DNA of 64,000 bases from Thermoplasmata archaeon. Its GTDB lineage: Archaea; Thermoplasmatota; Thermoplasmata; Thermoplasmatales; Thermoplasmataceae. A program made the position numbers and the translations under genes. Shown here piece after piece: positions 41,271 to 64,000 of this stretch. The notes beneath the pieces are model-generated. The model had not been told where the DNA came from, searched no databases, and saw nothing but the letters and a program-made list of their open reading frames with translations. The number at the start of each line of letters is the position of its first letter. Position 1 is the stretch's first letter. The DNA is taken from NCBI GenBank assembly GCA_021797555.1, contig JAJZZM010000001.1, positions 1 to 64,000 of the forward strand. The letters run 5' to 3'.

Positions 41271-42182
41271 ATGGATAATTATATCTCAGTAATTATTACG
41301 GCGTATAACAGGAAAGAGTTTTTATTAGATGCACTCAAAAGTGCCATAAACCAGACATTGGATAAAAAATATTATGAAATTATAGTTATAAAAAATTATA
41401 ATGATGAAATAATAGATAAATTTATAGAAAATAATAATATTAAAAGTATTAATATTGATGGTTATCATGGAGAGCTTTTATACGCAGGAATAAGGGAATC
41501 AAAAGGCAATATAATATCATTTCTGGATGATGATGATTTATTTTTTAACAATAAATTAGAATATGTTTATAATTTATTCAAAAATAATGATGATTTAGTT
41601 TATTACCATAATAATTATATTCCTGTAAATGAAAAAAATGAAAATGTAAATTTTATTAATGAAAATATAGACTTTAACAATTCATGCATGAGCATAAAAA
41701 AAGATATTATTGATTTAAATAAATTAAAAAAAATATCGGCATTAACGGATATATTCATTTATTTATCTGCCATAGATTATGATGGCAAAATAAAACTTGA
41801 TAAAACAAAATTAACATATTACCGGGTTCATAGCAGTGCATCAAATTTTACCGCAGATAATTTTGATGATTATAAAAATAAAAAAATAAGGTTTTTGGAT
41901 GTTTCACTGGCTGAACTTTATAAATTTAAAAATATTTTTAATAATAAAAATGTTGTAAAACATATAACTTCATATATAACAGACCTTAAAATGGATAAAT
42001 TTTTATGGGGTTTTTATAATGAACGCCCATCAAATATTATAAATTTTATTATACACATGGACCGCCCATTAAAAAACAGGTCCATGAAATTATTATATTA
42101 TGCAATAGTGAGATTGAAACCGCATTATTTTATGAGATATGCAATTGAAAAAAGGAAGAATGATTTTGTAAGAATGATTTAA
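41271..42182 (+). CDS. Family 2 glycosyltransferase (paralog A)
   Basis: YISVIITAYNRKEFLLDALKSAINQTLDKKYYEIIVIKN ... ISFLDDDDLFF. Confidence 0.9.
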   Translation: MDNYISVIITAYNRKEFLLDALKSAINQTLDKKYYEIIVIKNYNDEIIDKFIENNNIKSINIDGYHGELLYAGIRESKGNIISFLDDDDLFFNNKLEYVYNLFKNNDDLVYYHNNYIPVNEKNENVNFINENIDFNNSCMSIKKDIIDLNKLKKISALTDIFIYLSAIDYDGKIKLDKTKLTYYRVHSSASNFTADNFDDYKNKKIRFLDVSLAELYKFKNIFNNKNVVKHITSYITDLKMDKFLWGFYNERPSNIINFIIHMDRPLKNRSMKLLYYAIVRLKPHYFMRYAIEKRKNDFVRMI

Positions 42183-42227
42183 ATAAAAAATATGAAACTA
42201 TTATATATATAATTAGGATATATATTT

Positions 42228-43484
42228 GTGAATATAGTTATAACAGGACCTGATATTATAATATCGAAAGGCGGTGCACAAAACGTTGCAGTTAATGTTA
42301 TAAAAATACTGAATAACCATTATAATATAATATATTTACCCGATCCGGAACTTTACAATAAATTTAGAAGCAATAAAAATAATACAATAAAAATAGCAAA
42401 TAATCTTGAAAAATCTGGAATAAAAATAACAAAATATTTTTATGATATATTAGATAATAATTATAATTATGATGAAATAATTAATATTTATTCAAAGGAA
42501 AATATGGATTTTATATTCAATTTTGATTTTATTGGCAATTTTATATTTTCAAAAAATTTTACACTGGAATTAAGCAAAAAAATGAATTTAAAATACGGCG
42601 TTTGCCTTCAGGGCCTGGGCAATTATGATATCCATTTGTTTAAATATATGTACTCAACATTAATGCTAAGCAAAAATTTTCATATTTTTTTATACAGAGT
42701 GTACAATTTTATATACAGGCATTTTTTATTATTTGAGCTTGCAAATTCAGATAATTTATTATTTATTTTAGTTATATATGAAAATTATAATGATAATATA
42801 AATATAAATTTTGAAAATATTGAAATAATAAATCCTGCGGTAGGAGTTATTAATTCAAACATAGATATAAGCATGTACATCAACATGCATAAGGAAAATA
42901 AAATCATATTCTTTGCAAGGTTAAATTATTTAAAGGGGATACTTGATATACCAAAAATATTAAAATTAATAATAAAAAAATATAATACAAAAATAGTTAT
43001 ATGTGGTAAATTCAATCGTGATTTTGAGCGTAAATTATTTTTTAAAATGGTAAATAAATTAAAATTAAATGATTATGTTGTTTATAAGGGATATTTAAGT
43101 GATGATGAATTATACAATGAAATATCAACATCAAAATTAATGCTTTATCCATCGCATGATGATTCTCAGCCCATAGCAGTAATGCAGTCACTGTCATTAT
43201 ATACTCCGGTAGTGGCATACAGTATAGCAGGATTGAAAATATACAATGATTTTAAATCTGTAAAATTGGTAAAGGAATTTGATTACAAATCAATGGCAAA
43301 TGAAGCATTAAAGATATTAAAAATGGAAAATACATATAATTTATTCAATGACAATATAAATGAATTTATAAAAAAACACAACTGGTACAATGTTGCAATG
43401 GAATATAAAAATATTATAGAAAAATACAGTAAAAATGATGCAAAAATAGAAAAAGATGCAAAAGATATAGATTTATATAATTAA
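42228..43484 (+). CDS. GT4-type glycosyltransferase
   Basis: GGAQNVAVNVI, KIIFFARLNYLKGILDIPKIL, YPSHDDSQPIAVMQSLSLYTPVVAYSIAGLKI. Confidence 0.88.
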   Translation: MNIVITGPDIIISKGGAQNVAVNVIKILNNHYNIIYLPDPELYNKFRSNKNNTIKIANNLEKSGIKITKYFYDILDNNYNYDEIINIYSKENMDFIFNFDFIGNFIFSKNFTLELSKKMNLKYGVCLQGLGNYDIHLFKYMYSTLMLSKNFHIFLYRVYNFIYRHFLLFELANSDNLLFILVIYENYNDNININFENIEIINPAVGVINSNIDISMYINMHKENKIIFFARLNYLKGILDIPKILKLIIKKYNTKIVICGKFNRDFERKLFFKMVNKLKLNDYVVYKGYLSDDELYNEISTSKLMLYPSHDDSQPIAVMQSLSLYTPVVAYSIAGLKIYNDFKSVKLVKEFDYKSMANEALKILKMENTYNLFNDNINEFIKKHNWYNVAMEYKNIIEKYSKNDAKIEKDAKDIDLYN

Positions 43485-43734
43485 TATTAAAATAGGGTCA
43501 ATAAATAATATATAATTATTATAACACATATAAAAATTGTATTAATATTTACATCCCGGAAATGGTTTGTACAATAACGCCATGATGAGATGTTCAATAG
43601 GATGTATCCTTTTATAAATACACAAAAATTTTACACGGGCTTATGATAGCTTTATCTAGGTAATTGCCTTATAATCTATTTATTAATTCAAAAAATTTAT
43701 AAAAATAATAATTATATATAAAATTTAAATTGGT

Positions 43735-46700
43735 TTATTTCCTTTTCCTGAATACATATAATATTCCAAGGACAGAGCCTAAAGCGCCTAAAAATACGCC
43801 CACATATGCTATGTCATATACAACTGCATTGCTATGTTTTAAACTATTTATATTATGGTACTGATTTGACAATGTGTTGTTTACATTAAGTGTGGTGTAA
43901 TTATACGATGTTAATCCATCATTTTGCATTGTTTTAACTGTTACATTATATGTTCCCTCAGGAAGTATGTTTGTGTTATAACTGAATTTTATTATTTTGT
44001 CTGTTGTATTATATATAATATGGTTATCTATATATACATCTGTGTATGCAATATTATTGCCTGTGATATTTATATTAAGTGTTATATTGCCTGTATATGT
44101 ACTGTTGTATACCGGTGATATTATATTTATTTCTGGCTTTGCAGGGCTAATTGTTTTATATGATGAGTCATGAAGTACTAACTTTGAAGATACAGAATTT
44201 ATATTATCAATATAACTTGATATCATTATTAATTTACTGTTTTTTAACACAATGTTTGATCCTATTGTTTTATTAAGATAGATTACAGAGTTGTTTACAT
44301 ATAGAGTTCCACTTATTGTTGTGTGTGACAACGAAATTGATGAATTATTTATATAGTTATTTCCCAGTAATATTGAATCCGTTATATTGCCGTTATAACT
44401 TATTTTATCGTTCTTTAATGCAAGGCCATATGTTAGATTTAGATTTGATATTTTTGAGTTCTGTATAATTGTATAAGGTTCTATTTCAAATGATTTCTGT
44501 GCACTGTATGCCGTTGTTGTTGGATATGCATTCTCTGATATGCCCGATATATATATGTTGTATAAGCCGGGGGGCAGTTCTGTATCTTCCCTTAATATAC
44601 CATAATAGTTTATCCCAAAGCTGCCATCCGATGTTGTGGATGGCAATTTGAAGTGTCCAACCCATTCATTTACCATTGAATTATAATTCATTGCTATCTG
44701 TGTAAATTCTGTCATTTCATAATATTCATTATCAAGAAGTGCAGGATAAAATGTCATGGAGTACATACCATACTTTACCTCGGTTCCATTTGGATACTGA
44801 ATATTTGCCATTACTGTTACATTTTGCCCCTCATATGCAACCGAATTTACTGAAATTATTGGTGTTATGGATTTAGTAACATATATCTGGCCATAGAAGG
44901 ATCCATTTATATATTCATTATTAAAATGGCTGAAATAGCTTGAATTTATGAGTATTGTATATAATCCAGATGATGCATTGGATGGCACATATAATTCTGG
45001 TATGGCATTTGGATTGCAAGAGTCATCAAGCACATTGTATTCAGCAGAGCTAATCATTTTATGTGCAGGGGAATACAATGAGAATGTTATATTTGAACAT
45101 AGGTCTGCAAAGGGTGAAAATTCATTATCAGGACCTGTTACACTTCCTTCAATGTATATATACTGACCAGCGCCAACAGCACCCGGCTCAACCACATTTG
45201 GCCCAAGTATGACTGAATCCTGTAAATAAGGCCCATTCATAAATGGAAGGTAGGCATATGATCCAACACCTTTTATTAATGATACTGTATCAGGAAGTTT
45301 TAATGATGCCGGTATATCACCAATTAAATATGTTGCGTTCTTTGCATATAATCCTGTTGTAGTATTTATGGCATACAATTCTGTTGTATAAACCATATAA
45401 TATGTATTGTTCATTATTGAATATGAATACATGGATATTGTTGCGTTATGGCCCTGCACCAGGGTTCCATTAAGATATGACATTTCAGCCACAATTGTTA
45501 AACCGCCAGGAGCATTTGTGGAAAACGGTTCTGCCGCAGAAGGTTCTATAATATTAAGGAAATCGCCTATAAATATATTATCCACATTCATGCCATATTT
45601 TGTTCCATTATGGCCGTAAACCTCAAAATATGATGGGCCGCTTACATTATCAGGTATTGTTACCTCTGCGGTCCAATCCTGATCTGTAGTATTGTACGTC
45701 ATTTGAGTGGTTGTTATATTTCCAGATAATGTAATAAGCGATACATTAAAAGAGCCAGTTACCACATTGTTTGAGTAATCCGTCATATTTTTTATTACAG
45801 AGCTGCTATTTATATAGGCATATACCAATACTGACTGACCCGGCTGGTATTCGGAAAATTCCGTTTCATTGCTTGATAAATTCATATTTGCTGTATTCAT
45901 ATAACTGCTGCCTACAAGTACTGATAATTTCTTTAATGACTTCATGGTTTTATATGCCTGTGCAAATGCAGATATATTAAGTGACCCCCATCCATTTACA
46001 AGATTGTATCCATAATGATCTGTAAAAGGTATATTATATCCAAGGTTTACAGGTATGAATACATTTTTATAGTCATGCCCACCTAGATAGTATAATGACG
46101 GCTCTATCATGCCAATTTTATGCCCTATTTCCTCATCTGCCAATGTTATTAAGCCTGCAAGTATGGGACTTGCCTCGCTTGTGCCTCCTGTTATCTCGGT
46201 TACATTTCCTGGCATAACGTAAAGGAAGCCGGGGAAAATCGATGCCTCAAATGAAAGGTCTGGAACGGTTTTCCCATATGGGAAACCTTTTGGAATTATG
46301 GAGGAATTCTGATAGGGCATTATTGGCTGCGTATAACTTATGCCTCCGGTTGAACCACCATAATTTATCTCAGGTGGAACAAAACCATAGTTGGACCATG
46401 CTGTTTGATAGAATGATGATAATAAAGTGCCGTTAAAATCAAGATATGTGGTTGTTCCTCCCACGGAGGTTACATATGGCGATGTTGCAGGATACCCCAC
46501 GGTTCCAAGAGGACCGGTACTGAATCCACTTGCACCTACATCACCGCTTGATGCTGAAAATGTTATGCCCTCCAATGATCCCATTGCATACATTTCATTT
46601 GTTACCTGCTCACACGTGTAATATGCACCTGATGATGTTAAAAATGATTCTGGAAGAGAAAAGCTCTGTGATAGATCGTTTACCCTATTCTGTGAATCTA

Positions 46701-47706
46701 TGAATGATATTAATGGTGTTAGATCACAATCTAAATTGCCTATATACAATGTTATATTGGCACCGGGTGCCATTGTATGGGATGATTCAACATCCAGGCT
46801 TATTTCACCGGCCCAGCCCGAGATTAATCCACACACGGGTTGATAAGGCCCTATGGGAACTATATTAAAATGCGGCGGGGCACTTATATTAAACTCTCTG
46901 TCATAATATGATAGCTGTGCTTTTATGTATGGATCGCCACCAAAATCTAATATTCCTATTGTTTGGCCACTTCCATTATAGCCTTCCTTATACATTGTTG
47001 TGGCATTATAAACGCTTTCAAGGTATTTTGGAGAATAGCCAACAAGCGGTAATGTTTGGTTCTGCTTCTGTGCAATTTTTGATAATGATGAAATCTGTTT
47101 TTCACCTATTAATGTTGTTGGATGTGCCATTACAATGCTGGATATATTATTAACCATTATCTCTGAATTAAGCAATGTTGGAGTGCCGAAACCATAATAA
47201 TACATTGCGGTTCCATTACTATAATAATTTGTCTTTAGTCCCAAAAAATGTGATATCTGGAATTCTGTACCCTCAGCAGATATTATGGGATTAGTTTTAT
47301 ATAATATTTTAAAACCGTCATTTTCTAGTATTTTTAAATCATTAGTATAAGTATTTGTATTCATAAATTCCTTTTCTATTTGGGAATATGTCATGGTTTT
47401 ACCGAATAATGGAGTACCGGGTGTTGAAACCTGATTCGCTAAAGAATTTAAAATTGATTGATCCTTTAATGGAACATAAACAATAAAATGTAATTCTGTG
47501 TTGCCAGGAACTTTACCATAATATGAAAAACCTTTTGCAGTAGTATTCTGCACCGGATATAACTTTCCAGTGGATGCAGGATTATAATTATTTGCGGTTA
47601 CATTTGCTCCTGGGGAGTTATTTAAACCTGACGGTAATATTATCATGGAAAAACCAATAACTGACATTAAAACTACAAGTATAACCATAGACTTTTTAAA
47701 TTGCAT
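43735..47706 (-). CDS. Large S53 (sedolisin/kumamolisin-like) secreted protease with C-terminal membrane anchor
   Basis: 1323 aa; GEISLDVESSHTMAPGANI (E/D catalytic region), GGTSEASPILAGLI (Ser region), prodomain, C-terminal TM then RKRK. Confidence 0.88.
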   Translation of the reverse strand: MQFKKSMVILVVLMSVIGFSMIILPSGLNNSPGANVTANNYNPASTGKLYPVQNTTAKGFSYYGKVPGNTELHFIVYVPLKDQSILNSLANQVSTPGTPLFGKTMTYSQIEKEFMNTNTYTNDLKILENDGFKILYKTNPIISAEGTEFQISHFLGLKTNYYSNGTAMYYYGFGTPTLLNSEIMVNNISSIVMAHPTTLIGEKQISSLSKIAQKQNQTLPLVGYSPKYLESVYNATTMYKEGYNGSGQTIGILDFGGDPYIKAQLSYYDREFNISAPPHFNIVPIGPYQPVCGLISGWAGEISLDVESSHTMAPGANITLYIGNLDCDLTPLISFIDSQNRVNDLSQSFSLPESFLTSSGAYYTCEQVTNEMYAMGSLEGITFSASSGDVGASGFSTGPLGTVGYPATSPYVTSVGGTTTYLDFNGTLLSSFYQTAWSNYGFVPPEINYGGSTGGISYTQPIMPYQNSSIIPKGFPYGKTVPDLSFEASIFPGFLYVMPGNVTEITGGTSEASPILAGLITLADEEIGHKIGMIEPSLYYLGGHDYKNVFIPVNLGYNIPFTDHYGYNLVNGWGSLNISAFAQAYKTMKSLKKLSVLVGSSYMNTANMNLSSNETEFSEYQPGQSVLVYAYINSSSVIKNMTDYSNNVVTGSFNVSLITLSGNITTTQMTYNTTDQDWTAEVTIPDNVSGPSYFEVYGHNGTKYGMNVDNIFIGDFLNIIEPSAAEPFSTNAPGGLTIVAEMSYLNGTLVQGHNATISMYSYSIMNNTYYMVYTTELYAINTTTGLYAKNATYLIGDIPASLKLPDTVSLIKGVGSYAYLPFMNGPYLQDSVILGPNVVEPGAVGAGQYIYIEGSVTGPDNEFSPFADLCSNITFSLYSPAHKMISSAEYNVLDDSCNPNAIPELYVPSNASSGLYTILINSSYFSHFNNEYINGSFYGQIYVTKSITPIISVNSVAYEGQNVTVMANIQYPNGTEVKYGMYSMTFYPALLDNEYYEMTEFTQIAMNYNSMVNEWVGHFKLPSTTSDGSFGINYYGILREDTELPPGLYNIYISGISENAYPTTTAYSAQKSFEIEPYTIIQNSKISNLNLTYGLALKNDKISYNGNITDSILLGNNYINNSSISLSHTTISGTLYVNNSVIYLNKTIGSNIVLKNSKLIMISSYIDNINSVSSKLVLHDSSYKTISPAKPEINIISPVYNSTYTGNITLNINITGNNIAYTDVYIDNHIIYNTTDKIIKFSYNTNILPEGTYNVTVKTMQNDGLTSYNYTTLNVNNTLSNQYHNINSLKHSNAVVYDIAYVGVFLGALGSVLGILYVFRKRK

Positions 47707-47889
47707 AAATAATTATAAAATTCTAATATAAATATTTATATCATATTTATATCATATTTATTATATGAAATAATAGTTTTAAAGTAAAATATATATGTAT
47801 TTACTTTAGATATAAATGCAATAATAAAGAAGAGATATATATCATTAATAGTGTAATTGCTGTAATTATAGCCAAAATAGCTATAATAG

Positions 47890-48990
47890 GTAGTAGTATA
47901 CCATTAAAAATCAGGTTAATGTAACTGTAAATAAAACAATAGAAGATCATGCTGATGAGGTTTCAGCAGATCATTCTGGAGATACAGCATATACATTTAA
48001 TGTTGCAATTAAATATACACACAGTGTAACCCTATCTGTAAATCAATTTAATTTCTGCATTGTTACATTCAATGGAACGGTAAATGGAAATACTATTGCA
48101 TGGACATATATTTTTATTCCATTTGATCCACCCTGTAACTGCCTGAACCATTTATAAATATCCTAATAAAAGTAGAATCTATTGCCAATAAACGCATGTA
48201 TTTGCTATATACCCTGTAATCATGTGCCCTTATATATGGTTTTAACAATTTATAAAAACAGTTCAATGAATGGAATGTATGATCTACTGTTATTGAGTCT
48301 ACTGTTATTGAGTTTTGACAACCATGATTTGCCTATTCCGCTGTCAATGAATGTATCTGTTAGATCATACTTATGCAGTGCACTGTAGATTAAAGCATAT
48401 AAATGGTCAATGAATTTAATCTTCTTTGGTTTAGGTCAATATTCATTGATTCTGATATTTCATTTGCAGGTTTATTTAGTATGCCTTTAACTGTTTTCAT
48501 AATAATTGAAAATTAAATTATCATATAAATATGACATGGCATGACAATATTTAAGTATTGGAAACTGGTAAGTAATATAACAAAAAATACTGTAATAAAT
48601 TATAATTTAGATTATAATAATATAAAATAATTTAACATCTTATCAAAAACAGTTAATGGTACGGTTAATTTAAAGTATAATTTAATATCATTAAACTATA
48701 AACCGGATAATAATTTTCTAATGGAGGAACCATATGCTATTCTTGGAATTATAATTTTATCCTCGTTACTAATTTATCCTTTAGTAAATATTGCTGTAAG
48801 ATCAAAATTAATTTTAAATTTAAATATTATAAAAATAAATTTAATTTTATTTTTAATACTATTTTATACCACGTTTATATTATATTATTTTAATTATATA
48901 AATATAAATTTATTATTCTTTAAGATATTTGGAATAATAATAACAATTTTACTGTTTTTATATATAATTGAATTTAGAAAAACCAAATAA
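47890..48990 (+). pseudogene. Membrane/surface protein gene interrupted by a truncated IS
   Basis: 5' part NQVNVTVNKTIEDHADEVSADHSGDTAYTFNVAIKYTHSVTLSVNQFNF...; 3' part NGTVNLKYNLISLNYKPDNNFLMEEPYAILGIIILSSLLIYPL... (includes ORF 48721-48990); IS remnant between them. Confidence 0.45.
48060..48572 (-). mobile_element. Truncated IS copy with transposase pseudogene
   Basis: Nucleotide similarity to 53420-53908; ends with tattggaaactggtaag at 48556-48572, exact reverse complement of the left IR at 53040. Confidence 0.8.
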
Positions 48991-49007: not shown

Positions 49008-50263
49008 TTATGTAATATTTTCTATATTTTTTATATCCTTCTTTATTTTTATACCGTTTTTACTGTATTTATCAATAATGTTTTTATATTCCATTGCAAC
49101 ATTGTACCAGTTGTGTTTTTTTAATAAATCCATTAATATTATCATCAAATAAATTATATACATTTTCCATTTTTAATATCTTCAATGATTCGTTTGCCAT
49201 TGCCTTATAATCAAATTCCCTTACCAGTTTAATAGATTTAAAATCATTATATATTTTCAGTCCCGCTATATTGTATGCCACCACCGGAGTATTCAATGAT
49301 AATGACTGCATAACTACTATGGAAAATGTATCATTGTGTGACGGATAAATCATTAATTTTGATGTTGATATTTCATTGTATAATTCATCATCGCTTAAAT
49401 ATCCCTTGTAAACAATATAATCATTTAATTTTAATTTATTTACCATTTTAAAGAATTTATTCTTTTCATTTTTATAGACAAATTTACCTGCAATTATTAA
49501 TTTTGTATTGTAATTTTTATAATATATTTCATTATTTTTGGTATTTCAAATATTCCCTTATTGTAAATTAACCTTGCAAAGAATATTATTTTATCTTCTT
49601 TTTTGTTTTTATTATATTTTAATATATTTATATTAGAATTATTAATTCCATTGCTTATATTCAATACATTTATATCTTTGAATTTTATTTTTATGCTTTC
49701 ATAATAATATTTATTTACTATACATAAAAATTTAAGATTTTTATACCTTTTTAAACTATGTAATATCAAATTGTAATTAAAATAATGATATATTCTATAT
49801 AAAAATATATGAAAAGTTTTGCTCAATTTAATTGTGGAATATATATAATTGAAAATATGGAGGTCAAAATTGCCAAGTCCCTGAAGGCAGACTCCGTACT
49901 TTAAATTCATTTTTTTGCCGAATATCAATGTAAATTTTTAGAAAACACAGAGTTTTCTATGAATTCAAATGCAAATATAAAATCTATTTTTTCTTTTGAA
50001 TAAATATTGATTATTTCATTATAATCATAATTATTATTTAATATGTCATAAAAATATTTTGTTATTTTTATTCCAGATTTTTCAAGATTTTTTGATCTTT
50101 TAATTATATTATCGTTATCTTTTCTGAATTCTTTATACAGTTTTGGATCAGGTAGATAGATAATGTTATAATAATTATTTAATATGCCTATAACGTTTAT
50201 TGTATGGTTCTGGGCACCGCCACTACTTATTAATAAATCTGGGCTAGTTATGCCTATATTCAT
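49008..50263 (-). pseudogene. GT4-type glycosyltransferase pseudogene (paralog of 42228-43484)
   Basis: Three consecutive ORFs (49925-50263, 49497-49928, 49084-49446) in different frames align end to end with the intact paralog. Confidence 0.85.
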
Positions 50264-50807: not shown

Positions 50808-51776
50808 CTATATTTCATCCTTGAACTTATTATTGTAATATCTGTAATTTACAAGTTCCTCAAATATTGTTATGCCCTTTTTATCAAATTTGAAATTGTT
50901 AGTCAAATTCTCTACATAATCTACATCATCAAGATTTAAATACTTAATTATGCCATTATTCTTTATTATACCCTTATTTATCTTAATTAATTCGTCTCTA
51001 TTTGACAATTCCACAAAATATTTATACTTGGTTAAAGTATATTTAAATAAAAACCACTCATTCCTATATGTTTTGTATTTTATGGAATTTATATTGAAAG
51101 ACCTTAGGAATAGAAGAAACCAGAGCAATGTTACAGTATGTCTGCCAAGAATTTTATTTTTATTTCTGAATAGATTAAATAAGGGTGATTGCGTGGAAAG
51201 ATATGAGGCCGTAAATGGTCTTTCATATGCTTCTATAGTTAAATAAGGCCCCCTTTTTTTTAGATAATTGCTGAAGTCTGCGTGATGAATTATGTAACAT
51301 TGTTTATCCATTTCTTTCACAATTCCATTTATGGGAGGAATTTCATGAATCATGCCATTATAAACAATACTATCTTTCTTATAAAGCCGAAGCTGATAGT
51401 CGTAGCACTTAAGTGTTTCTTCGTACCTAAGGATAGTATACGCTGAAGCATTTTTTAAATCTATATTTTTTAAATTATTAATAAAACTTTGATTTGGCCC
51501 CTCATCAGCATCAAGATATAGAACCCAGTCTGATGCTATTTTTTTTAAAGCATACATCCTGAAAGGCTCTACATACCCGATAGGGAACATCCTTATTATC
51601 CGAACTTTTTCAATATTTTTGTATTTATCGGACAATTCATTATACTTTCCAATGTCTGAAGAATCTATTATAAGTATTTCATCAACAATATCCATTAACA
51701 GTTCTATATTGTGGTTTATACCTCCATTCTCGTTATAGTTGAACATCAGCAATGCCAGGGGAGGTCTCCCTTCCAT
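50808..51776 (-). CDS. Glycosyltransferase, GT2-like
   Basis: ALLMFNYNENGGINHNIELLMDIVDEILIIDSSD ... DWVLYLDADEGPNQSFI. Confidence 0.75.
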   Translation of the reverse strand: MEGRPPLALLMFNYNENGGINHNIELLMDIVDEILIIDSSDIGKYNELSDKYKNIEKVRIIRMFPIGYVEPFRMYALKKIASDWVLYLDADEGPNQSFINNLKNIDLKNASAYTILRYEETLKCYDYQLRLYKKDSIVYNGMIHEIPPINGIVKEMDKQCYIIHHADFSNYLKKRGPYLTIEAYERPFTASYLSTQSPLFNLFRNKNKILGRHTVTLLWFLLFLRSFNINSIKYKTYRNEWFLFKYTLTKYKYFVELSNRDELIKINKGIIKNNGIIKYLNLDDVDYVENLTNNFKFDKKGITIFEELVNYRYYNNKFKDEI

Positions 51777-52062: not shown

Positions 52063-52998
52063 GTGATTTATCAATTTATGGATAATTATATATCAGTTAT
52101 AATTACAGCGTATAACAGGAAAGAATATATATTAAAAGCTATTAAAAGCGCTTTAAATCAAACATTAGATAAAAAATATTATGAAATAATTGTTGTTAAA
52201 AATTTTAATGATGATGAAATAGATAATTTTATAAATAAAAATAACATAAAATCCATATTAAGCAATAATAAATTATTAATCATTGATGGAATAAAATGTT
52301 CTCAAGGAAATATAATATCTTTTTTGGAGGATGATGATCTATTTTTTAACAATAAATTGGAAACTGTTAATAAAATTTTTAATGATAAAAATATAGTATA
52401 TTATCATAATTATTATTATCCAATAAATGATAGTGATGAATATACCAATTTTAATAACCAGGATATAACTTTTAATATGTCCTGCATTTCAATAAGTAAA
52501 AATATAATAGAGATAGATAAACTAAAAAATATAAAAACAATTACAGATCTATTTATGTATTTATCTGCTTTAGATTATGGTGGTGAAATAAAAATTGATA
52601 AAGCAAAATTAACTTATTACCGGTTTCATAATAGTGTATCCAATATAATCATAAAAAACTTTAAGGAATATGAAAATAAAGCAATATTGTTTAGATATAA
52701 CTGTATTAATGACCTTACTGCATTTAAATCTATGTTTAAATCAAATAAATCACTAAAATGTATAGATTTATACATAATAGATAATAAAGTAGAATTATTG
52801 CTACTAGGCAAAAATCAAATAACCATAAAAGAAATATTAAAATATACAATATACAGAAAAGGTAGATTTATTAATAAATCCATGATAATAATATTATATC
52901 CATTATCAAAAATATTTCCAATAAAATCATTAAAATTAATAAAATATTTTAAAAAAATGCATTTTAAAAAAGTTGTGTCTAATAAAGGATACAAATAA
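52063..52998 (+). CDS. Family 2 glycosyltransferase (paralog B)
   Basis: DNYISVIITAYNRKEYILKAIKSALNQTLDKKYYEIIVVKNFND ... ISFLEDDDLFFNNKLE. Confidence 0.9.
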   Translation: MIYQFMDNYISVIITAYNRKEYILKAIKSALNQTLDKKYYEIIVVKNFNDDEIDNFINKNNIKSILSNNKLLIIDGIKCSQGNIISFLEDDDLFFNNKLETVNKIFNDKNIVYYHNYYYPINDSDEYTNFNNQDITFNMSCISISKNIIEIDKLKNIKTITDLFMYLSALDYGGEIKIDKAKLTYYRFHNSVSNIIIKNFKEYENKAILFRYNCINDLTAFKSMFKSNKSLKCIDLYIIDNKVELLLLGKNQITIKEILKYTIYRKGRFINKSMIIILYPLSKIFPIKSLKLIKYFKKMHFKKVVSNKGYK

Positions 52999-53039: not shown

Positions 53040-53908
53040 CTTACCAGTTTCCAATATTAATATTTTTGCTTACAATTCCCACAGTAATCTATTATCATTT
53101 AATCCATAACCAATACTTATATTCAATTCCATCAACATTCACCCTTACAATCCTTAAATTCAATCCTTAAATTCAATCCATTATTCATTTCAACCATTCC
53201 ATGGCCATTGACTATTCCCGATTCATAATAAATGGCATTCCTCTTTATTCTTGATACAAGTAATATATTTTTATCAGCAAGTAATTTAAACCTCTCCAAA
53301 TTATAATACCCCAGATCAAATACCAATATGGATGAGTACAGCATTTTATTATCTATACTTTTTATAATATTATCAAACAGTGACGAATCATTTACATTGG
53401 CAGATGATATGTATGCATTCAGTGGAACAGTGAACTGGAATACTATTGCAGGAACATGCACCTTCATCCCATTTGATTTCCCTTTATAACTTCCTGAACC
53501 ATTTATAAATGTTTTTATGAATGTAGAATCCATTGCAAGCACACGCATGTATTTGCTGTATACTTTATAATCATGTGCCATTATATATGGTTTTAACAAT
53601 TTATAGAATAGTTCAATGAATGGAATGTATGATTTATTGTTATTAAGCTTTGATAACCATGATTTGCTTATTCCATTGTCAATGGAAGGAGCGGTTAAAT
53701 CATACTTATGCAGTGCACTGTAGATTATAGCATATAAATGGTCAATGAATTTAATCTTATTTGAATTTATATCAATATTCATTGATTCTGATATTTCATT
53801 TGCAGGTTTCTTCAGTATATCTCTAACTGTTTTCATAATGATTGAAAATTAAATTATCCTATAAATATGACTTGGTATGACAAAGGTTAAGTATTGGAAA
53901 CAGGTAAG
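53040..53908 (-). mobile_element. Insertion sequence, ~869 bp, with 17-bp imperfect terminal inverted repeats
   Basis: Left cttaccagtttccaata (53040-53056), right tattggaaacaggtaag (53892-53908), one mismatch; encloses a transposase ORF. Confidence 0.85.
53132..53836 (-). CDS. IS4-like DDE transposase, C-terminus probably altered by frameshift
   Basis: MRVLAMDSTFIKTFINGSG...KGKSNGMKVHVPAIVFQFTVPLNAYISSANVNDSSLFDNIIKSI..SSILVFDLGYYNLERFKLLADKNILLVSRIKRNA. Confidence 0.8.
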   Translation of the reverse strand: MKTVRDILKKPANEISESMNIDINSNKIKFIDHLYAIIYSALHKYDLTAPSIDNGISKSWLSKLNNNKSYIPFIELFYKLLKPYIMAHDYKVYSKYMRVLAMDSTFIKTFINGSGSYKGKSNGMKVHVPAIVFQFTVPLNAYISSANVNDSSLFDNIIKSIDNKMLYSSILVFDLGYYNLERFKLLADKNILLVSRIKRNAIYYESGIVNGHGMVEMNNGLNLRIEFKDCKGEC

Positions 53909-54119
53909 ATACTTTCAACAAAGTTATTTTCAATATTTTCATATCCCCAATATCCTTAGATATTAGAAATAAAATATAATCATGGAATTCTTTGAAATTA
54001 TCATAATCAAGATACAAATACTCGTTGTTCCCTTTAATCTGAGATTTTTCAATGTTGTTTGTCTCTTTGTCTATGTCAATTATCCTATCGACAATTATGT
54101 GCTTCCTATTTTTAGGCAA
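53909..54119 (-). pseudogene. Gene fragment cut by the IS right end
   Basis: TTG-initiated ORF 53859-54119 runs into the IS inverted repeat, so its C-terminus is IS-derived. Confidence 0.4.
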
Positions 54120-54179: not shown

Positions 54180-55220
54180 TCATTTCTTTAATATAATTGC
54201 AAAACATCCCTCTTCCTTTTTATGGATGAATTTAAAATAAAACATATTTGAAAGATAACACACCGTCTTAGAAGTTGCAACTCGCTTCATAGTACTCTTA
54301 AAAAACCCGATATGATAATTTGTTTCAACACAACCACGGAGGTCGCTGGTTAAAGTAGATGTAGGTAATTTAGGTAATTTATTGGAAAAGTGTTTATCTA
54401 TAATAAAATTTACAAGTAAATTTGAATGGTTAAAATTGAAACAACCCTTATCTGGAAAAATAAAATCGACTTTTAATCCAAGGCTTTTAGAAATTGTTTG
54501 AAAAGATTTTTTACTAAACCAAAATCTATGTACTGGAGGTAACTCAGTTTCCCATACCTTATTAACGTTATAATAATGAGGAGTAGTCAATAAAATAACA
54601 CCTGTTTCATTTAATAATGGTAAACACCCGCTTATAAGCCCAAGAGGATTATTAACGTGTTCTATCACCTCCGTCATTACAATTAAGTCAAACTTTTGTT
54701 GTGAACTGCTACTTAGTTTCTCTAAACTAATAGCCTTATAAAAAGAGCCAAATAAATTGATGGCATTTCTAACACTAGTTTCTGATATATCAATCCCAAG
54801 TGTTGAATAGCCAGTTTTGTTTAAAGCATAAGTTAGATACCCAAGGCCAGTTCCTACTTCTAATATAGATTTTACTTTTTCCTTTTTATCATTTAGGTAA
54901 TTATAAACGGCTTCATAAGCAAATTCCTGTTTAGAAAGGAATTTAAAAGGTTCTTTTTCATAAATCACTGATTTTGCGTATTTTTTATACCTATCGTAAG
55001 CTGGAACACATTGGAGATTATAAATGGCATTGTATACTTCTTCTGAGGTGCCAGGGGCAAGAATGAATTCTGTAATGCAATTATTACATTTAAAAATATC
55101 ATAACTCGTTCCATCCACGTATCCTGGATAATTAGAGTAAATTTTCTCTACATTATAGCTTTGACATATTGGACATTCATAATTGGAATTCTTATTAGAA
55201 ACATCTTCAACGCTTTCCAA
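54180..55220 (-). CDS. SAM-dependent methyltransferase with N-terminal zinc ribbon
   Basis: YECPICQSYNVEKIY...FKCNNC zinc ribbon; ILEVGTGLGYLTYALNKTGYSTLGIDIS motif I; FDLIVMTEVIEHVNNP. Confidence 0.88.
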   Translation of the reverse strand: MESVEDVSNKNSNYECPICQSYNVEKIYSNYPGYVDGTSYDIFKCNNCITEFILAPGTSEEVYNAIYNLQCVPAYDRYKKYAKSVIYEKEPFKFLSKQEFAYEAVYNYLNDKKEKVKSILEVGTGLGYLTYALNKTGYSTLGIDISETSVRNAINLFGSFYKAISLEKLSSSSQQKFDLIVMTEVIEHVNNPLGLISGCLPLLNETGVILLTTPHYYNVNKVWETELPPVHRFWFSKKSFQTISKSLGLKVDFIFPDKGCFNFNHSNLLVNFIIDKHFSNKLPKLPTSTLTSDLRGCVETNYHIGFFKSTMKRVATSKTVCYLSNMFYFKFIHKKEEGCFAIILKK

Positions 55221-55718: not shown

Positions 55719-56684
55719 ATGGATGGAAAACCATTTATTTCAGTAATAATCACGGCATACAACAGGAAAGAGTTTTTATTAAATGCAATTAAAAGCGCAT
55801 TAAACCAGACATTATCCAAGGATAAATATGAAATCATTGTAATAAAGAACTTTAATGACAATAAAATAGATAAATTTATGGATGAAAATAATATAACATC
55901 AATAATTTCTGATGGAATAGAAGGCGAGTATCCATATATTGCATTAAATAAATCCAATGGAGAAATATTATCGTTTCTGGATGACGATGATTTAATGAGG
56001 GAAAATAAGCTTGAAATAGTATATAATATATTCAATGATAAAAACATAGGATACTACCATAATAACTTTGAGGTTTTATTGAATAATAATATTGTGTATA
56101 ATAAATTAATAAATTCGCCTAGATATAAAACAATTGAAATAGACAACAAGGATAAAAATAAGTATATTTATTACATGGAAAAAAAATTATTATATGTTAA
56201 TAATTCGTGCATATCAATTCGCAAGGAAATATTAAAGCCATGGTCACTATATTTAAAAAATCAGGCTGCAAATATAGATCGTTTTATTTTTATAAGCGCA
56301 TTATTATCAAAATTCAACCTTTATATGGATAACAGAATATTAAATTCATACAGAATACATAATGACCAAACAGGAGTTTTAGTATCCAATAATATCAATG
56401 TTCTGGCCAGGAAAAAACTTGAATTCATAAACAAAAGCTTAACAGCATTTAACAATATAATGAAAATGGCTAATAATTCAAGGTTTGAGGGCTATGTAAG
56501 AACCAGAATAACAAATCTAAAACTTGCATATAACTTCTGGTCATTTGAAAATAGATATAAAATAAGTTTAAATGATTATTTGGATTATATAAATAATAAG
56601 GATTTTAATGAGATACCAAGATTAATAATCTATAAAACGCCAAAATTTATAAGGAAAAGATTAATAAAAATTATTTATAGATAG
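55719..56684 (+). CDS. Family 2 glycosyltransferase (paralog C)
   Basis: FISVIITAYNRKEFLLNAIKSALNQTLSKDKYEIIVIKNFND ... LSFLDDDDLMRENKLE. Confidence 0.9.
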   Translation: MDGKPFISVIITAYNRKEFLLNAIKSALNQTLSKDKYEIIVIKNFNDNKIDKFMDENNITSIISDGIEGEYPYIALNKSNGEILSFLDDDDLMRENKLEIVYNIFNDKNIGYYHNNFEVLLNNNIVYNKLINSPRYKTIEIDNKDKNKYIYYMEKKLLYVNNSCISIRKEILKPWSLYLKNQAANIDRFIFISALLSKFNLYMDNRILNSYRIHNDQTGVLVSNNINVLARKKLEFINKSLTAFNNIMKMANNSRFEGYVRTRITNLKLAYNFWSFENRYKISLNDYLDYINNKDFNEIPRLIIYKTPKFIRKRLIKIIYR

Positions 56685-56778
56685 GTAATATAATTTTTAT
56701 ATACTATTTTTATAATGCATCCAAATTGGGAATTTTTATTATATATCTTAAATAATCAATAACTTTTAGTCATCATAA

Positions 56779-57498: not shown

Positions 57499-57747
57499 AT
57501 GCTTGAAGAAGAAATGAGTGTAGGCCCCAAGGGGCAGGTGGTAATACCGGTTGCATTAAGAAAAACATTAAAAATCACGCCGGGTTCAAAGGTGATTTTC
57601 AAATTGGATGGTGATAGAATAATACTGGAAAAACTGAAAACAGATTCGGTAAATATCTTTAGGGAAATTGCCAAAAATGGAAAAAATGTAAATGAAATAA
57701 AATATAATGAATATAAAGACGAAATTTTTAAAAGGAATAAATTATGA
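57499..57747 (+). CDS. AbrB/VapB-type antitoxin
   Basis: VGPKGQVVIPVALRKTLKITPGSKVIFKLDGDRIILEK swapped-hairpin motif. Confidence 0.88.
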   Translation: MLEEEMSVGPKGQVVIPVALRKTLKITPGSKVIFKLDGDRIILEKLKTDSVNIFREIAKNGKNVNEIKYNEYKDEIFKRNKL

Positions 57748-58160
57748 TATATATAGATTCCAATGTATTTATATTTGCCTCACTTAACAATGAAGAATTA
57801 GGTAATAATGCAAGACTTATTTTGGAAGAGGTAGAAAATAGAAATATTGAGGCAATAACAAGTGCATTAACCTTTGATGAGGCCATCTGGATAATAAAAA
57901 AGAATAGAAATTTTGAAGATGCAATATCTGCCGGTGAGGCTTTTTTGAATATGCCCGGGCTTCATTTGGTTGATGTAAATCAGGATTTGCTGGCACTTTC
58001 AATGGATATCATGAAACGATATAAAACCGATCCAAGAGATTCAATTCATGCAGCAACTGCAATAACGCAAAAGGCAAACATCATCATATCTGAAGACTCA
58101 GATTTCGACAGAATAAAGGAATTAAAAAGAAGGGGCATAATGGAATTTAAAATACAGTAA
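57744..58160 (+). CDS. VapC-type PIN-domain toxin
   Basis: MIYIDSNVFIFA, LTFDEAIW, DPRDSIHAATAI, IISEDSDFDRI acidic PIN residues; 4-nt overlap with antitoxin. Confidence 0.88.
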   Translation: MIYIDSNVFIFASLNNEELGNNARLILEEVENRNIEAITSALTFDEAIWIIKKNRNFEDAISAGEAFLNMPGLHLVDVNQDLLALSMDIMKRYKTDPRDSIHAATAITQKANIIISEDSDFDRIKELKRRGIMEFKIQ

Positions 58161-58492
58161 TATGCATTAATTCAATTCATTCAAAAAGCAAATTATAGAC
58201 TTGTTTTATATCTAAATTTTTGTTGGTTTTTGCATTATAATTTTGCTGTTCGATTCTTAACTATTCCGATTTTAAACAGCTCCATAACACGTGTTGCCAT
58301 GATTATCCCGCCCTATTCCAGAATTGATTTTACTATTTTGGTGATTTTTTATTATTCTTTATTAATTTAAGAATAAATATTGTATCATCCTTTAAATAAT
58401 GGTCTGAATATTATAACATTGTTGTAATAACAAAATATAAGGATTTAATGTATAGATGAAAAACATTATTATATATGTAAAGCTTATAATTT

Positions 58493-59280
58493 ATGATAAG
58501 GGCAGTGGCCTTTGTGCCAAATTCTCCAAGCCTCATAGGAAATATTGGCGTGGACCATAAAGAAACAATAAGTGCTCTTGAAAAACTTGGAAAGGAAATA
58601 AAGGATTGTGTTGATAATGTTATAATTATGATACCGCATTTTCAAACATCAGGCGGATTTGGAATTGTTGGCACACCAAGGCTTAAGCAGATTTTGCTTA
58701 TTATGGATTTCCTCCTGAACTCTATAATGTTAAATATGAACCTCCGGGAGACCATGAACTTGCAGAGCAGATAATAGAACTTGGAAATGGCAATGATATT
58801 AATATTGGCATGGTTGATAACTGGGGTCTCGACCACGGTGCATGGTCGCCACTTTTGCATATTTTTAATGATGCATCAGTGCCGGCAATTCTGGTTTCAA
58901 TATGTCCTGATATGGGTGCACAGGCGCATGTTGACCTCGGCAGGCTCATAAGGTCTTTACAAATTAAGGGAAATTTATGCGTTCTTGCAAGCGGTTCTTT
59001 GATTCACAGGCTTGACCTGTTTCAGAGTGGTGTTAATGAAACACCACCACTGGCAATGGAATATCTGGAAAACTGCATATCCTCATTAGAAAATGGAACA
59101 TGGGATAATATATTTGATTCTAAACCCGATATTTTAAGGGTCGCATCCCCTGAGGGTTACAATCTTCCATTGAGGTTCATACATGGCGTGGTTGGAGAGA
59201 AAATTAAGGCAACAATACTTTCAAATGAAATGGAATTCAACGCAGCATCACTGACAACCATAAGGTTTGAGGCTATTTAA
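58493..59280 (+). pseudogene. Class III extradiol dioxygenase-like gene split by a frameshift
   Basis: Frame 1 MIRAVAFVPNSPSLIGNIGVDHKETI...MIPHFQTSGGFGIVGTPRLKQI; frame 2 YYGFPPELYNVKYEPPGDHELAEQIIELGNGNDINIGMVDNWGLDHGAWSPL...; shift at about 58685-58705. Confidence 0.75.
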
Positions 59281-59667
59281 GAGAATGATGCCATATATTA
59301 TCCAGTTGTTATTTTTGGTTAATTTATATTGGTTATCATTTATATTTTATTTATATATTCGGTTAAAACCCAATCATAACATTTTAATGTAAAAATCTAA
59401 TAAGTGAATATCTAATTAAAGTATTGCATGAGAATTTAGATATTAAAAACATTAAATACATATAAGAATTTATTTTTATGTGGTATAATTAATATCATCA
59501 TTTATAAGCATCCTTTAATTTATTATATTAATTATAAAAATAAACCTTTAACATCATTTCCTGAATTATACATTCATGTTTTAAGACCTTATTATTTTAC
59601 CAAATAATATCTTTATGTATTTCACATTCAATCATAATTATAATATATATAAAATATATTAGTAAAA

Positions 59668-60597
59668 GTGGATTACAAAATGCTGGAAAATTTGTGGAGT
59701 TCAAATAATTTGGACAATCTGATTAAATTTTATAAATTTATAAATAATCCTGAGAAGGCATATAATTTCTCCATAAACAGGAAAAAGCCGGACATAAAAA
59801 TATATCACCATAATAATAATTCCAGTATATGTTTTATAATTCCAACTATTAGCATAGATAATTTTTTGAAAACTTCTTATTGGAACCTTGTTTCCAGATT
59901 TGATGCAGTAATCGTTGAATCAGGCGGGCAATATTTTAACTATGCCAGGAGCATAAATAATGGCATATGCAAGGCGTTAAAATATGATTATAAAACACTG
60001 ATATTGAGCAATGATGATATGGAAATTATTGACAACAGTGATAAATTATTAGAAGAAATAGAAAATTTAAGGGAATTTGATATTATATTGCCAACAAAGA
60101 TTAGAAAAGGCAAATCCAATTTCTCAATATCAGATCAATTTAATATTGTTAATTTTAATGCTATAACCAGATATACAAATTATATCAACTGGTTTATTAA
60201 CAAAAATGCCAATTTCAATGAATTCAGAGCCATATTAAAAGGTATTGATGGCTATAAATATACTATATTTGAAGGCAGTGGAAACAAAAAACTGGATAAT
60301 CTTATTTTAAAATTCCTTAAAATAAAATATGGCAAAATTCCATTATTTAACTCCTTTGGTATATTCAAAAGATCGGTTTTGGAAAAAGAGAATATGGATG
60401 AAACCTTTATAAATGGTAAGGAGGATTATGAATTTGTTATAAGACTGGTTAATGATAAATTTTCATTTGGCAAAAGCACATTCAGAATAGCAGACATAGG
60501 TGGTCAATCACTGAACAAATATAATAACAATCTGAGGATTTTAAAGGATTTATTATCAGAATTAATTCTTAATTATTATATTGAAAACTATTTTTAA
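59668..60597 (+). CDS. GT-A-type glycosyltransferase-like protein (GTG start)
   Basis: FIIPTISIDNFLKTSYWNLVSRFDAVIVESGGQYFNYARSINNGICKALKYDYKTLILSNDDMEII. Confidence 0.65.
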   Translation: MDYKMLENLWSSNNLDNLIKFYKFINNPEKAYNFSINRKKPDIKIYHHNNNSSICFIIPTISIDNFLKTSYWNLVSRFDAVIVESGGQYFNYARSINNGICKALKYDYKTLILSNDDMEIIDNSDKLLEEIENLREFDIILPTKIRKGKSNFSISDQFNIVNFNAITRYTNYINWFINKNANFNEFRAILKGIDGYKYTIFEGSGNKKLDNLILKFLKIKYGKIPLFNSFGIFKRSVLEKENMDETFINGKEDYEFVIRLVNDKFSFGKSTFRIADIGGQSLNKYNNNLRILKDLLSELILNYYIENYF

Positions 60598-60969
60598 TGT
60601 AAAATTTTATTCATGAATTATCTTTATTTAATGAGATAAAAAACTATGTTGCACATGTTGATAATGACCATGTTGAAATAATATAACAAAGGCGTTTATT
60701 GAAAACGCAATAAAAATATTTTTATACTTTGATTGTAAATTTTAGCATGTATAACAATTATATGCATTCATAACTAAAAGCATTATAAATATATTAAAAT
60801 AAAGATTTTTATTGATATTATAATTATAATATTAGATTAATTTGTCCTTTAGAAATTGTTTAATTATTAATAAACATCATAAATTTATAAAACAATAAAT
60901 ATCATCATGGGATAATAGAATACGTCAATTAATGGAACCTCAATTCCTGGTTCGTCTTATTCGTCAGTT

Positions 60970-61893
60970 ATGGGTATTGAAATAACATCCATTGCATTCC
61001 GGTTATTAAAAATTCAGGAAATATCAATATTTCTGCTATATACAGGCTTAATTATATATTTATCACTTTCATTAATCTTTTTGTTTAAGATAATACAATT
61101 TACAAAAAATATATCATTTATTAGCAGGAATAAAATATTGGGTTATTTTACATTTTCAGCAGGCAGTGCAGTTCTTGGTACAAGGCTAATCGTGAATGGG
61201 TTATATTTCTTTGCCTATTTACTTTTTTATTTAACAATAGTATCAATTGCTGTTTTTGCAATAATGTATTTCAATGAATACAGAATAAAGATAGATTTAC
61301 ATTTTTACTTCATGCCATTTATATCAATTTTAAGTTTTTCCGTACTATTTTCTCAGATGTTATATATTATAAATATAAGGTCTCAATATTATACGCTGCT
61401 TTTAACATTTTTATTTTTGGCAGGCAATGCCGGATATATTGCAGTAACCGCAAAGGCGTTTAAATCGTATAATAAAATATTCAATTCATCAAAAATAAAT
61501 GGATTTTATATGGTTTATGCCGGGATTGGGTCACTTGCATCCCTAGCCGGGCTAAATGCCATTAAAATTATTTCAAATGTTTTTGTTTTTGCTTTTATTG
61601 AGAAATTATCATATATTGATTATTTCTATGGCATTATAATGTCATTTTTTGTATTGACCCTATTTTTTATTAAATTTATAAGAAATATAAGTCATAAATA
61701 CAGTGTTAGCTGGTGGGGCGCTGTCTTCCCACTGGGGGTTTTATCTGCAGGATCATCAATAGTATGGTTTTTAACCGGTATTCCTGCTGTTAAATATTTT
61801 GCTTATTTTTATGCGTTCATGGCTTTAATTCTGATTATATATGCATTTATACATATTTCATGGATATTTATATCTGAATTGAGGAGTAAGTAG
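60970..61893 (+). CDS. Polytopic membrane protein, unknown function
   Basis: 307 aa, about 8 hydrophobic segments; stop overlaps an IS-end-like sequence at 61892. Confidence 0.6.
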   Translation: MGIEITSIAFRLLKIQEISIFLLYTGLIIYLSLSLIFLFKIIQFTKNISFISRNKILGYFTFSAGSAVLGTRLIVNGLYFFAYLLFYLTIVSIAVFAIMYFNEYRIKIDLHFYFMPFISILSFSVLFSQMLYIINIRSQYYTLLLTFLFLAGNAGYIAVTAKAFKSYNKIFNSSKINGFYMVYAGIGSLASLAGLNAIKIISNVFVFAFIEKLSYIDYFYGIIMSFFVLTLFFIKFIRNISHKYSVSWWGAVFPLGVLSAGSSIVWFLTGIPAVKYFAYFYAFMALILIIYAFIHISWIFISELRSK

Positions 61894-62300
61894 TTGCATA
61901 ATTCATTTTAACAAAATTTTAATTCAACATAAATTCCTTGCATGTTAAATACATGGAATTGATTGGCTTTTTATGATACCAAAACCTTTTATTTTTAGAT
62001 TAAATAACTCTATAAATATAGGTTTTAATTATAGAGGAAATTACTATAAAAATATAATAATCAATGAAAGATTTCTTGGATAATAGTGTATTATAAAGAT
62101 AGAATAAACTATTAAATATATACATTATAATAAAATACGAGGATTGTTTAAGATTTCAGTAATAATATTATATTTGGCTAAATTTAGGGATTATTACAGA
62201 GGATTTTTAAATAAATTAAAGGAAAACCATAAAAGAATAATTATTATAATGGATGATGATAAATGTTTCATGAAATGGAAATATTTTTATTTAATACTTA
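61892..62300 (+). mobile_element. Decayed IS related to 8102-8404
   Basis: Shared left-end sequence and degenerate transposase frame: MKDFLDNSVL*... ISVIILYLAKFRDYYRGFLNKLKENH. Confidence 0.5.
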
Positions 62301-62501
62301 ATATTCAGGATCAATTATTATAATTATTACTTGCAATTATCAATAAATGAAAGTGTAGTAACACTATCAATGGCATATGAAGAAAATTATGGTAATTTAA
62401 ATGTTAAAAATAATAAGTATATATGAGAACTCATTTTAGGATACCTACTTTTAAAAATGCATAACGAAAATTAAAATATAACTATACTATTAAACAAAAA
62501 T

Positions 62502-63557
62502 ATGAAGTCGGCACTAATTACAGGCATAACAGGTCAGGATGGGGCATATCTTGCAAAGTTATTATTAGAAAAAGATTATAAGGTTTATGGATTATACAGA
62601 AGGTTAAGCACACCAAATTTCTGGAGACTCCAAAATCTAAATATATACAATAGGGTTAATTTAATATCCGGTGATTTAACAGATTTATCATCTGTTTTAA
62701 ATGCCTTTAAGGCATCAAATCCTGATGAGGTTTATCATCTAGCAGCACAGAGCTTTGTAGAAGCCTCCTTTGAATCACCATTGGCAACAGCAGAGGTCAC
62801 AGGATTATCAACAACAAGGATTTTAGAGGCGGCAAAATTATATTACCCAAATACTAGGGTATATTATGCAGGCACAAGTGAGATGTTCGGATCATCTTAT
62901 GATGAAAATGGCCTTAATGAAAATTCTATTTTTAAGCCAATGAGTCCATATGCAGCTGCTAAACTATACGGCTACTGGATATCAAATATTTACAGGAATG
63001 GCTATAAATTATTTGTGTCATCTGGAATACTCTTTAACCATGAATCTGAAATAAGGGGTTTGGAATTTGTAACAAGAAAGATAGTAAATGAGGTTGCAAA
63101 AATACATTACGGCCTAGAAAAAAAGATAAGGCTTGGAAATATAAAGGCAAAAAGGGATTGGGGATATGCACCGGAATATGTTGAGGCAATGTACAGGATG
63201 CTACAGCAGGATTCACCTGATGATTATGTAATTGCAACAAATGAAACACATAGTGTAGAGGAGTTTTTACAGCTAGCGTTTGATTATATAAATGAAGATT
63301 ACACAAAATACCTTGAGATTGATAAAAGGTTTTTAAGACCTTTGGATGTTCCTGCATTAAAAGGAGATTATTCCAAGGCTAGGGATAAACTTGGCTGGGA
63401 GCCTAAAATAAAGTTCAATGAAATTGTAAAATTGATGATGAAGGCAGAGCTTAAAAGGTGGGAATTATATTTAAATGGAGAGCAGTTCCCATGGGATGTC
63501 CCCAACTATCCAAATGAGAATGCTTTATTAAAAACTTATTACAAGGTGAAAAAATGA
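62502..63557 (+). CDS. gmd: GDP-mannose 4,6-dehydratase
   Basis: ALITGITGQDGAYLAKLLLEKDYKVYGLYRR, YHLAAQSFVEASFESPLATAEVTGLSTTRILEA, SPYAAAKLYGYWI, DWGYAPEYVEAMY. Confidence 0.93.
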   Translation: MKSALITGITGQDGAYLAKLLLEKDYKVYGLYRRLSTPNFWRLQNLNIYNRVNLISGDLTDLSSVLNAFKASNPDEVYHLAAQSFVEASFESPLATAEVTGLSTTRILEAAKLYYPNTRVYYAGTSEMFGSSYDENGLNENSIFKPMSPYAAAKLYGYWISNIYRNGYKLFVSSGILFNHESEIRGLEFVTRKIVNEVAKIHYGLEKKIRLGNIKAKRDWGYAPEYVEAMYRMLQQDSPDDYVIATNETHSVEEFLQLAFDYINEDYTKYLEIDKRFLRPLDVPALKGDYSKARDKLGWEPKIKFNEIVKLMMKAELKRWELYLNGEQFPWDVPNYPNENALLKTYYKVKK

Positions 63558-64000
63558 TTCCTGTTTCAGAACCAGACATATCTGAAAAAGAAATAGATTA
63601 TGTTACTGATGCTGTAAGGTCTGGGTGGGTTAGCTCCCATGGAAAATATATTGATGAATTTGAATCAAAATTTTCCAAATTTATTGGGACAAAATATGGT
63701 TTAACTGTATCAAATGGAACTGCGGCTTTACATCTGGCATTATCGGCACTTGGCATAAAAAATGGTGATGAAGTTATAGTACCCGATTTAACATTCATAA
63801 GCCCTGTTAATGCTGTTTTATATAATAATGCAACGCCGGTTTTATGTGACGTGACAAAAAAAGACTGGTGCATTGACACAGATAAAATAGAATCGTTGAT
63901 TAATAATAAAACAAAGGCAATAATAGCAGTGCATTTATACGGAAATTCGGCTAATATGGATAAATTAATGGAAATAAAGAAAAAATATAATTTATATTTA
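63554..64000 (+). CDS. DegT/DnrJ/EryC1/StrS aminotransferase (truncated at window edge)
   Basis: MIPVSEPDISEKEIDYVTDAVRSGWVSSHGKYIDEFESKFSKFIGTKYGLTVSNGTAALHLALSALGI; open to base 64000. Confidence 0.9.
   Translation, partial: MIPVSEPDISEKEIDYVTDAVRSGWVSSHGKYIDEFESKFSKFIGTKYGLTVSNGTAALHLALSALGIKNGDEVIVPDLTFISPVNAVLYNNATPVLCDVTKKDWCIDTDKIESLINNKTKAIIAVHLYGNSANMDKLMEIKKKYNLYL

Follow-up and report, generated by a model that had tools for sequence, protein, structure and literature searches.

The window analysed here comprises bases 1–64,000 of a 300,088-bp contig from a 1.94-Mb genome in 24 contigs, and its right end holds the left 23.7 kb (40348–64000) of an island of ~62.0 kb. This Ferroplasma island was probably assembled horizontally and, as judged from its gene content, would make and export a variable surface glycan containing a GDP-perosamine-type sugar, probably for AglB-dependent N-glycosylation. 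The genome is of the Ferroplasma type within the Thermoplasmatales, the genus name Ferroplasma being presumptive. The comparison set consists of ten genomes/species of the genus, the own genome being labelled G000 and contigs C1, C2 etc. Positions above 64,000 refer to the same contig, right of the window, and genes are designated by position where needed.

In the predicted pathway, for which we infer the identity of the sugar, the sequence of reactions, the substrate of the flippase and the acceptor, a GDP-mannose 4,6-dehydratase (gmd; 62502–63557, plus strand) would convert GDP-mannose to GDP-4-keto-6-deoxymannose. This is also the predicted substrate of a PerA-type aminotransferase of the DegT family (63554–64000, plus strand; complete at 63554–64666), which would yield GDP-perosamine or its C4 epimer. 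Glycosyltransferases (GT) of families GT2 and GT4 would assemble a lipid-linked oligosaccharide, to be modified by methyltransferases and moved across the membrane by a Wzx-type flippase, while a large GT-C-like protein may attach an outer sugar outside the cell. A giant AglB, encoded elsewhere, would most likely transfer the glycan to sequon-rich secreted proteins. The island probably changes the sugar coat of the cell surface.

The low-GC block extends from 40,348 to ~102,368 and fills the gap between the divergent genes gcvPA (39018–40328) and PEPC (102447), starting ~20 bp beyond gcvPA. Local alignment to G002 and G007 breaks off at 40,347 and is taken up again at 102,368; therefore, 62.0 kb replace ~170 bp of these two genomes, in which gcvPA (88 % identity) and gcvPB (87 %), the left core flank (37607–40328, minus strand), adjoin PEPC. 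Since the gcvPA-PEPC spacing is just ~270 bp in G002 and G007 and ~250–300 bp in G001 and G003, empty sites as expected for a horizontally acquired island are available in four congeners. The span of 41271–64000 proposed in the initial annotation hence requires correction, as the true left edge is at 40,348 and the island continues for ~38 kb beyond the window. The GT genes have a GC content of 19–30 %, compared to 31–39 % for most flanking core genes. Signs of integration via a tRNA or att repeats were sought without success, no tRNA being found near the left edge and no terminal repeats >11 bp at the island ends. The gap measures ~3.7 kb in G005, G006 and G008, which carry a different insert with an ABC-ATPase-like gene; it may therefore be a recurrent insertion point. 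In G004 and G009, gcvPA and PEPC are separated.

Mosaic ancestry is evident from sequence identities and gene order. Core proteins of the contig share a median of 70 % identity with G005 (21 genes), and several island proteins lie in the upper part of the core range, namely Gmd (84 %), the DegT protein (76 %), the GT4 proteins 70407 (80 %) and 76895 (86 %), and a 1,042-aa polytopic protein (71457; 80 %), whereas the other island GTs and the flippase are 33–52 % identical. The gene order 76895-75294-74646-71457-70407 is conserved in G005, and 71457, 75294 and 76895 occur in the same order in the genome that we take to be Thermoplasma volcanium (G105). Identity to the latter amounts to 79 % for GT4 and 64 % for 71457, as compared to 41 % for AglB and 67 % for gcvPB. 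In the GT4 tree, the own copy groups with G005 and G008 (support 92/100) and not with the sister species G002, whose GT4 is nearest to T. volcanium (82 %); constraining the own and G002 copies together costs 56.7 log units and is rejected (p-AU 4e-7). The AglB tree, by contrast, unites the own genome with G002 and G007 (100/100), i.e., the two phylogenies conflict as expected for a horizontally acquired island. Exchange between species and between genera would be the simplest account of these sequence relationships. That hidden paralogues, and not transfer, underlie them is unlikely, because GT4 is closer to T. volcanium than gcvPB or AglB is. Recombination between Ferroplasma types is on record (PMC2704941).

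As proposed initially, the locus is a fast-changing one: besides insertion sequences (IS), pseudogenes and mosaic transfers, the presence/absence comparison suggested at that stage revealed gmd in six of the ten genus genomes, in addition to the four empty gcvPA-PEPC sites. No gmd was found in G002, G004 and G007 (all 99 % complete). One may tentatively speculate that Thermoplasmatales swap surface-glycan cassettes as blocks across species and genera, giving serotype-like coat switching. Such cassettes would comprise GT2, GT4 and the 71457 protein and would include Gmd-PerA in some cases; among the coat types, a GDP-perosamine N-glycan would be one that is so far undescribed for archaea. Left of the island, the region 28690–32509 (MFS transporter, racemase-like and peptidase-like genes) is 86–90 % identical to G005, which exceeds the core median and makes another transfer likely.

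With respect to the acceptor, N-glycosylation in the host is likely, since AglB is present, secreted proteins are sequon-rich, and published work reports N-glycans on filaments of related Thermoplasmatales genera (PMC12448462) and homologues of AglB and AglD in Thermoplasmatales from mine drainage (PMC3750248). The own AglB (2,065 aa; C2:77307–83456) harbours the WWDYG motif and carboxypeptidase-regulatory-like repeats, in agreement with the giant size (~2,050–2,130 aa) of AglB in Thermoplasmatales. The STT3 model PF02516 has no match in any of the ten genus genomes, though it has matches in most of the order. The loss of AglB suggested by this result was rejected, as a query from T. acidophilum (presumably G102) retrieved a 41 %-identical giant AglB in nine of the ten; thus, the Pfam model misses AglB in the genus and can mislead surveys of N-glycosylation. 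Four secreted/exported proteins of the window contain 3.1–3.9 sequons per 100 aa, as compared to ~0.3–1.9 in its other proteins. Relative to shuffles of their own composition, the enrichment corresponds to z = 6.0 for a secreted S53-type (kumamolisin-like) protease, 4.4 for the binding protein 35860, 4.1 for 23496 and 2.8 for thermopsin, which bears out the sequon richness ascribed earlier to the thermopsin and S53 proteins. The S53 gene (43735–47706, minus strand; PF09286, 3e-11; 47 sequons) itself resides inside the island. The link from the island to protein N-glycans is inferred.

Several points weigh against the overall reading of the island. AglB is encoded on a different contig from the island (linkage of aglB to such a cluster is a common, not a required feature), an initiating enzyme was not identified, and several of the island genes either are broken or qualify just weakly as GTs. 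In addition, C22 and C10 harbour further GT clusters and a second flippase, and the genome encodes an SQD1-like enzyme. Because of these clusters and this enzyme, the protein N-glycan could come from the C22/C10 genes, with the island serving a polysaccharide or glycolipid. A capsule-like coat of exopolysaccharide or membrane glycolipid in place of an AglB-dependent N-glycan is indeed the strongest competing explanation, albeit a clearly less probable one: polysaccharide loci hold the same gene classes, AglB is unlinked while C22 offers another flippase/GT cluster, and exopolysaccharide clusters have been predicted in Ferroplasma (PMC12350378). However, genes of the polymerase or chain-length type could not be recognised within the island, and the sequon-rich secreted proteins and the N-glycosylated filaments of related Thermoplasmatales (PMC12448462) argue for the N-glycan.

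It is rather unlikely that the island represents, for the most part, a gene repository in decay, in which IS elements drove the accumulation of GT copies and few steps still work. Such decay would account for the very low GC content of the GT genes, the GT2 pieces 74646/75294 and a number of broken genes. Among these, a GT4 pseudogene is confirmed, its location being 49084–50263 on the minus strand (initially placed at 49008); it is recognised as such because it consists of three frame-broken open reading frames (ORFs) forming an inverted copy (75–87 %) of the GT4 gene at 42228. IS copies do lie between the GT genes, comprising remnants at 48136–48572 and 53487–53908, which are 85–90 % alike, and a broken DDE transposase (53132–54119, minus strand), of which 53132–53836 matches PF01609 (DDE_Tnp_1; 9e-13), while the second piece (ORF 53859–54119) has no family match. 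Also within the island, a LigB/extradiol dioxygenase-like gene is split into two ORFs (58493–59280) and is likely a pseudogene. Nevertheless, Gmd, the DegT protein, GT4 70407, GT4 76895 and 71457 are full length and 76–87 % conserved with G005, the order from 76895 to 70407 is kept there, and the flippase is full length as well.

The assignment of gmd and degT at the right end of the window, and of the latter as a perosamine-synthase-type aminotransferase, agrees with the initial annotation. Gmd matches PF16363 (7e-114; 381 bits at a cut-off of 27), and its best matches among solved structures are the GDP-mannose dehydratases 1rpn (1e-104) and 2z1m; aligned with 1rpn, the glycine-rich NAD(P) site (TGITGQDGA), TSEMFG and YAAAK (YxxxK) are intact. 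Since the NCBIfam equivalog TIGR01472 is the best-scoring model, but its cut-off of 415 bits is not reached (357.7 bits), the protein is regarded as Gmd-type and not as a certified equivalog. The DegT protein matches PF01041 with 5e-125 (its segment inside the window alone with 8e-54). Its nearest structure is 7b0m, named just sugar aminotransferase, followed by the perosamine synthetases 3bn1 and 3dr4 (~1e-90), with which it has the stretches RYW...NYRMTN and HxxPPY in common. The lysine binding pyridoxal phosphate is kept, unlike in ColD-type dehydrases, with SFYGNKTMTTGEGG aligning with SFFGNKIITTGEGG of 3bn1. The two genes overlap by 4 bp and are adjacent also in G005, G006, G008, G001, G009, G021 and G026. 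Each of the six Ferroplasma genomes with Gmd has them side by side, as have two other genera; among 80 named loci, the pair is adjacent in 9, for the most part loci whose Gmd is the most similar. GT2 and flippase genes are near the pair in G005, G008, G001 and G009, a candidate mannose-1-phosphate guanylyltransferase is encoded on C17, and no N-acetyltransferase was recognised beside the pair.

The formation of GDP-perosamine (or the C4 epimer) by this pair is accordingly a prediction from homology, and a paper search on perosamine and archaea retrieved no title about perosamine glycans of archaea. The product of Gmd can enter several pathways, and the scores for the NCBIfam models of gmd and LegC stay below the equivalog cut-offs; Gmd might thus feed GDP-rhamnose or GDP-fucose synthesis, with the DegT protein serving another pathway. 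This is improbable, since no reductase or fucose synthase gene was recognised beside gmd, the adjacency of the pair recurs across genera, and the DegT protein aligns well with perosamine synthetase, including the lysine.

That the 62-kb block is a chimera, misjoined at repeated GT/IS sequence during assembly, is very improbable, since both joints lie beside core genes with 81–88 % homology to one same empty site and the block is devoid of N runs. In favour of a chimera, the genome is a draft of 24 contigs, among them C10, which terminates within GT copies, and C1, a paralogue contig of 4.4 kb. The GT2-GT4 pair as well as 70407/71457 have paralogues on C1, at the end of C10 and on C22; as C10 stops at such copies, the assembly may break at them.

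The remaining glycan genes of the window largely conform to the initial annotation. GT2 enzymes are encoded at 41271–42182 (PF00535, 4e-16), 52063–52998 (9e-13; 50 % identical to 41271) and 55719–56684 (1e-12; 40 % identical), and a GT4 enzyme at 42228–43484 (PF00534, 5e-18), all on the plus strand and with Pfam E-values of 1e-12 to 5e-18. The methyltransferase at 54180–55220 (minus strand) is S-adenosylmethionine-dependent (PF13489, 2e-18) and has N-terminal CxxC pairs. Two further loci named as GTs are weaker: 50808–51776 (minus strand) is a probable GT2-like enzyme with a PF00535 match (8e-4, 19.8 bits) below the cut-off of 23.3 bits, and 59668–60597 (plus strand) is a putative GT-A-like enzyme by motif alone, with an NDD that is invariant and an ED that is conserved in ten homologues, motifs of the kind met in GT-A folds. 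The latter matches no Pfam GT family, an alignment-based search likewise yielded no Pfam or PDB match, and AlphaFold2 prediction from the single sequence gave an uninformative model with a pLDDT of 35. As to the supposed expansion of GT paralogues, the GT2 proteins are true family members (36–50 % amino-acid identity with 41271); however, a genome-level excess is rejected, since the PF00535 total of 19 lies at the top of, and not above, the congener range of 9–19. Non-glycan genes in this interval, besides those for the S53 protease and the LigB-like protein, are a passenger pair of MazE-like antitoxin and PIN toxin (57499–58160, plus strand; PF04014, PF01850) and a gene for a SLAC1-like protein.

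Extension beyond 64 kb, as proposed initially, revealed the flippase (80460–82040; PF01943, 2e-12, above the cut-off) and more sugar genes, but no AglB in or near the island. These genes encode GT2 enzymes (65052, 78073), FkbM methyltransferases (66770, 76154) and GT4 enzymes (68782, 70407, 76895), in addition to the GT2 pieces, an rve-type transposase fragment following GT2 65052 and a TnpB-type transposase (79153). The polytopic protein (71457–74585) belongs to a family in which a YADxxxPLS-type stretch is invariant and which occurs patchily from Ferroplasma to T. volcanium, but not in T. acidophilum. This may represent a new GT-C family, a candidate status that reflects the absence of a relation to AglB in profile comparison and a PDB match that is just a weak C-terminal one to a carbohydrate-binding module (E ~0.01). 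At 83355–89653, likewise within the island, genes for a PP2C phosphatase and for a Ser/Thr kinase accompany those for four tandem vWA proteins; by content, this cluster looks like a TerY-P type module, but defence models (PADLOC) gave just weak generic kinase/phosphatase matches. Elsewhere in the genome, an SQD1-like UDP-sulfoquinovose synthase gene lies beside an NTP-transferase gene (C14, ~155.4–156.6 kb), which hints at a sulfosugar such as the N-glycan of T. acidophilum contains.

Islands of GT, flippase and nucleotide-sugar genes are a well-known class. Designation as a little-described system was therefore too strong, also because N-glycans of Thermoplasmatales are known (PMC12448462). 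The locus is of a known kind and newly mapped, ordinary in kind and informative in detail: it provides a synteny-placed case of a surface-glycan island entering an acidophilic archaeon without a rigid wall, for which both donor-like relatives and empty sites are available, and it names a testable sugar of the perosamine type.

Archaeal Agl clusters (e.g., agl of Haloferax volcanii) likewise combine GTs, nucleotide-sugar enzymes, a methyltransferase and a flippase, with an AglB-type oligosaccharyltransferase in the genome. Unlike in such clusters, AglB is here unlinked and giant, a Gmd-PerA pair is present, and the island is mobile and species-specific at its site. The N-glycan system of T. acidophilum belongs to the same archaeal family, and has the same giant AglB type (40–41 % identical), an SQD1-like sulfosugar enzyme being encoded also here; it differs in that its known glycan contains 6-C-sulfofucose (Vinogradov et al. 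2012, as cited in PMC12448462) and in that the Thermoplasma genome scanned (G014) has no Gmd match. Bacterial GDP-perosamine loci (Caulobacter PerA, E. coli O157, Vibrio O1) share Gmd, PerA, GTs and export, but the present host is archaeal and the pair lacks a recognisable neighbouring N-acetyltransferase. Finally, the island resembles hypervariable surface-glycan islands in being low in GC, rich in IS and GT genes, mosaic, and present or absent among relatives, and differs from them by its empty site at the gcvPA-PEPC gap and by an exchange that extends to another genus (T. volcanium).

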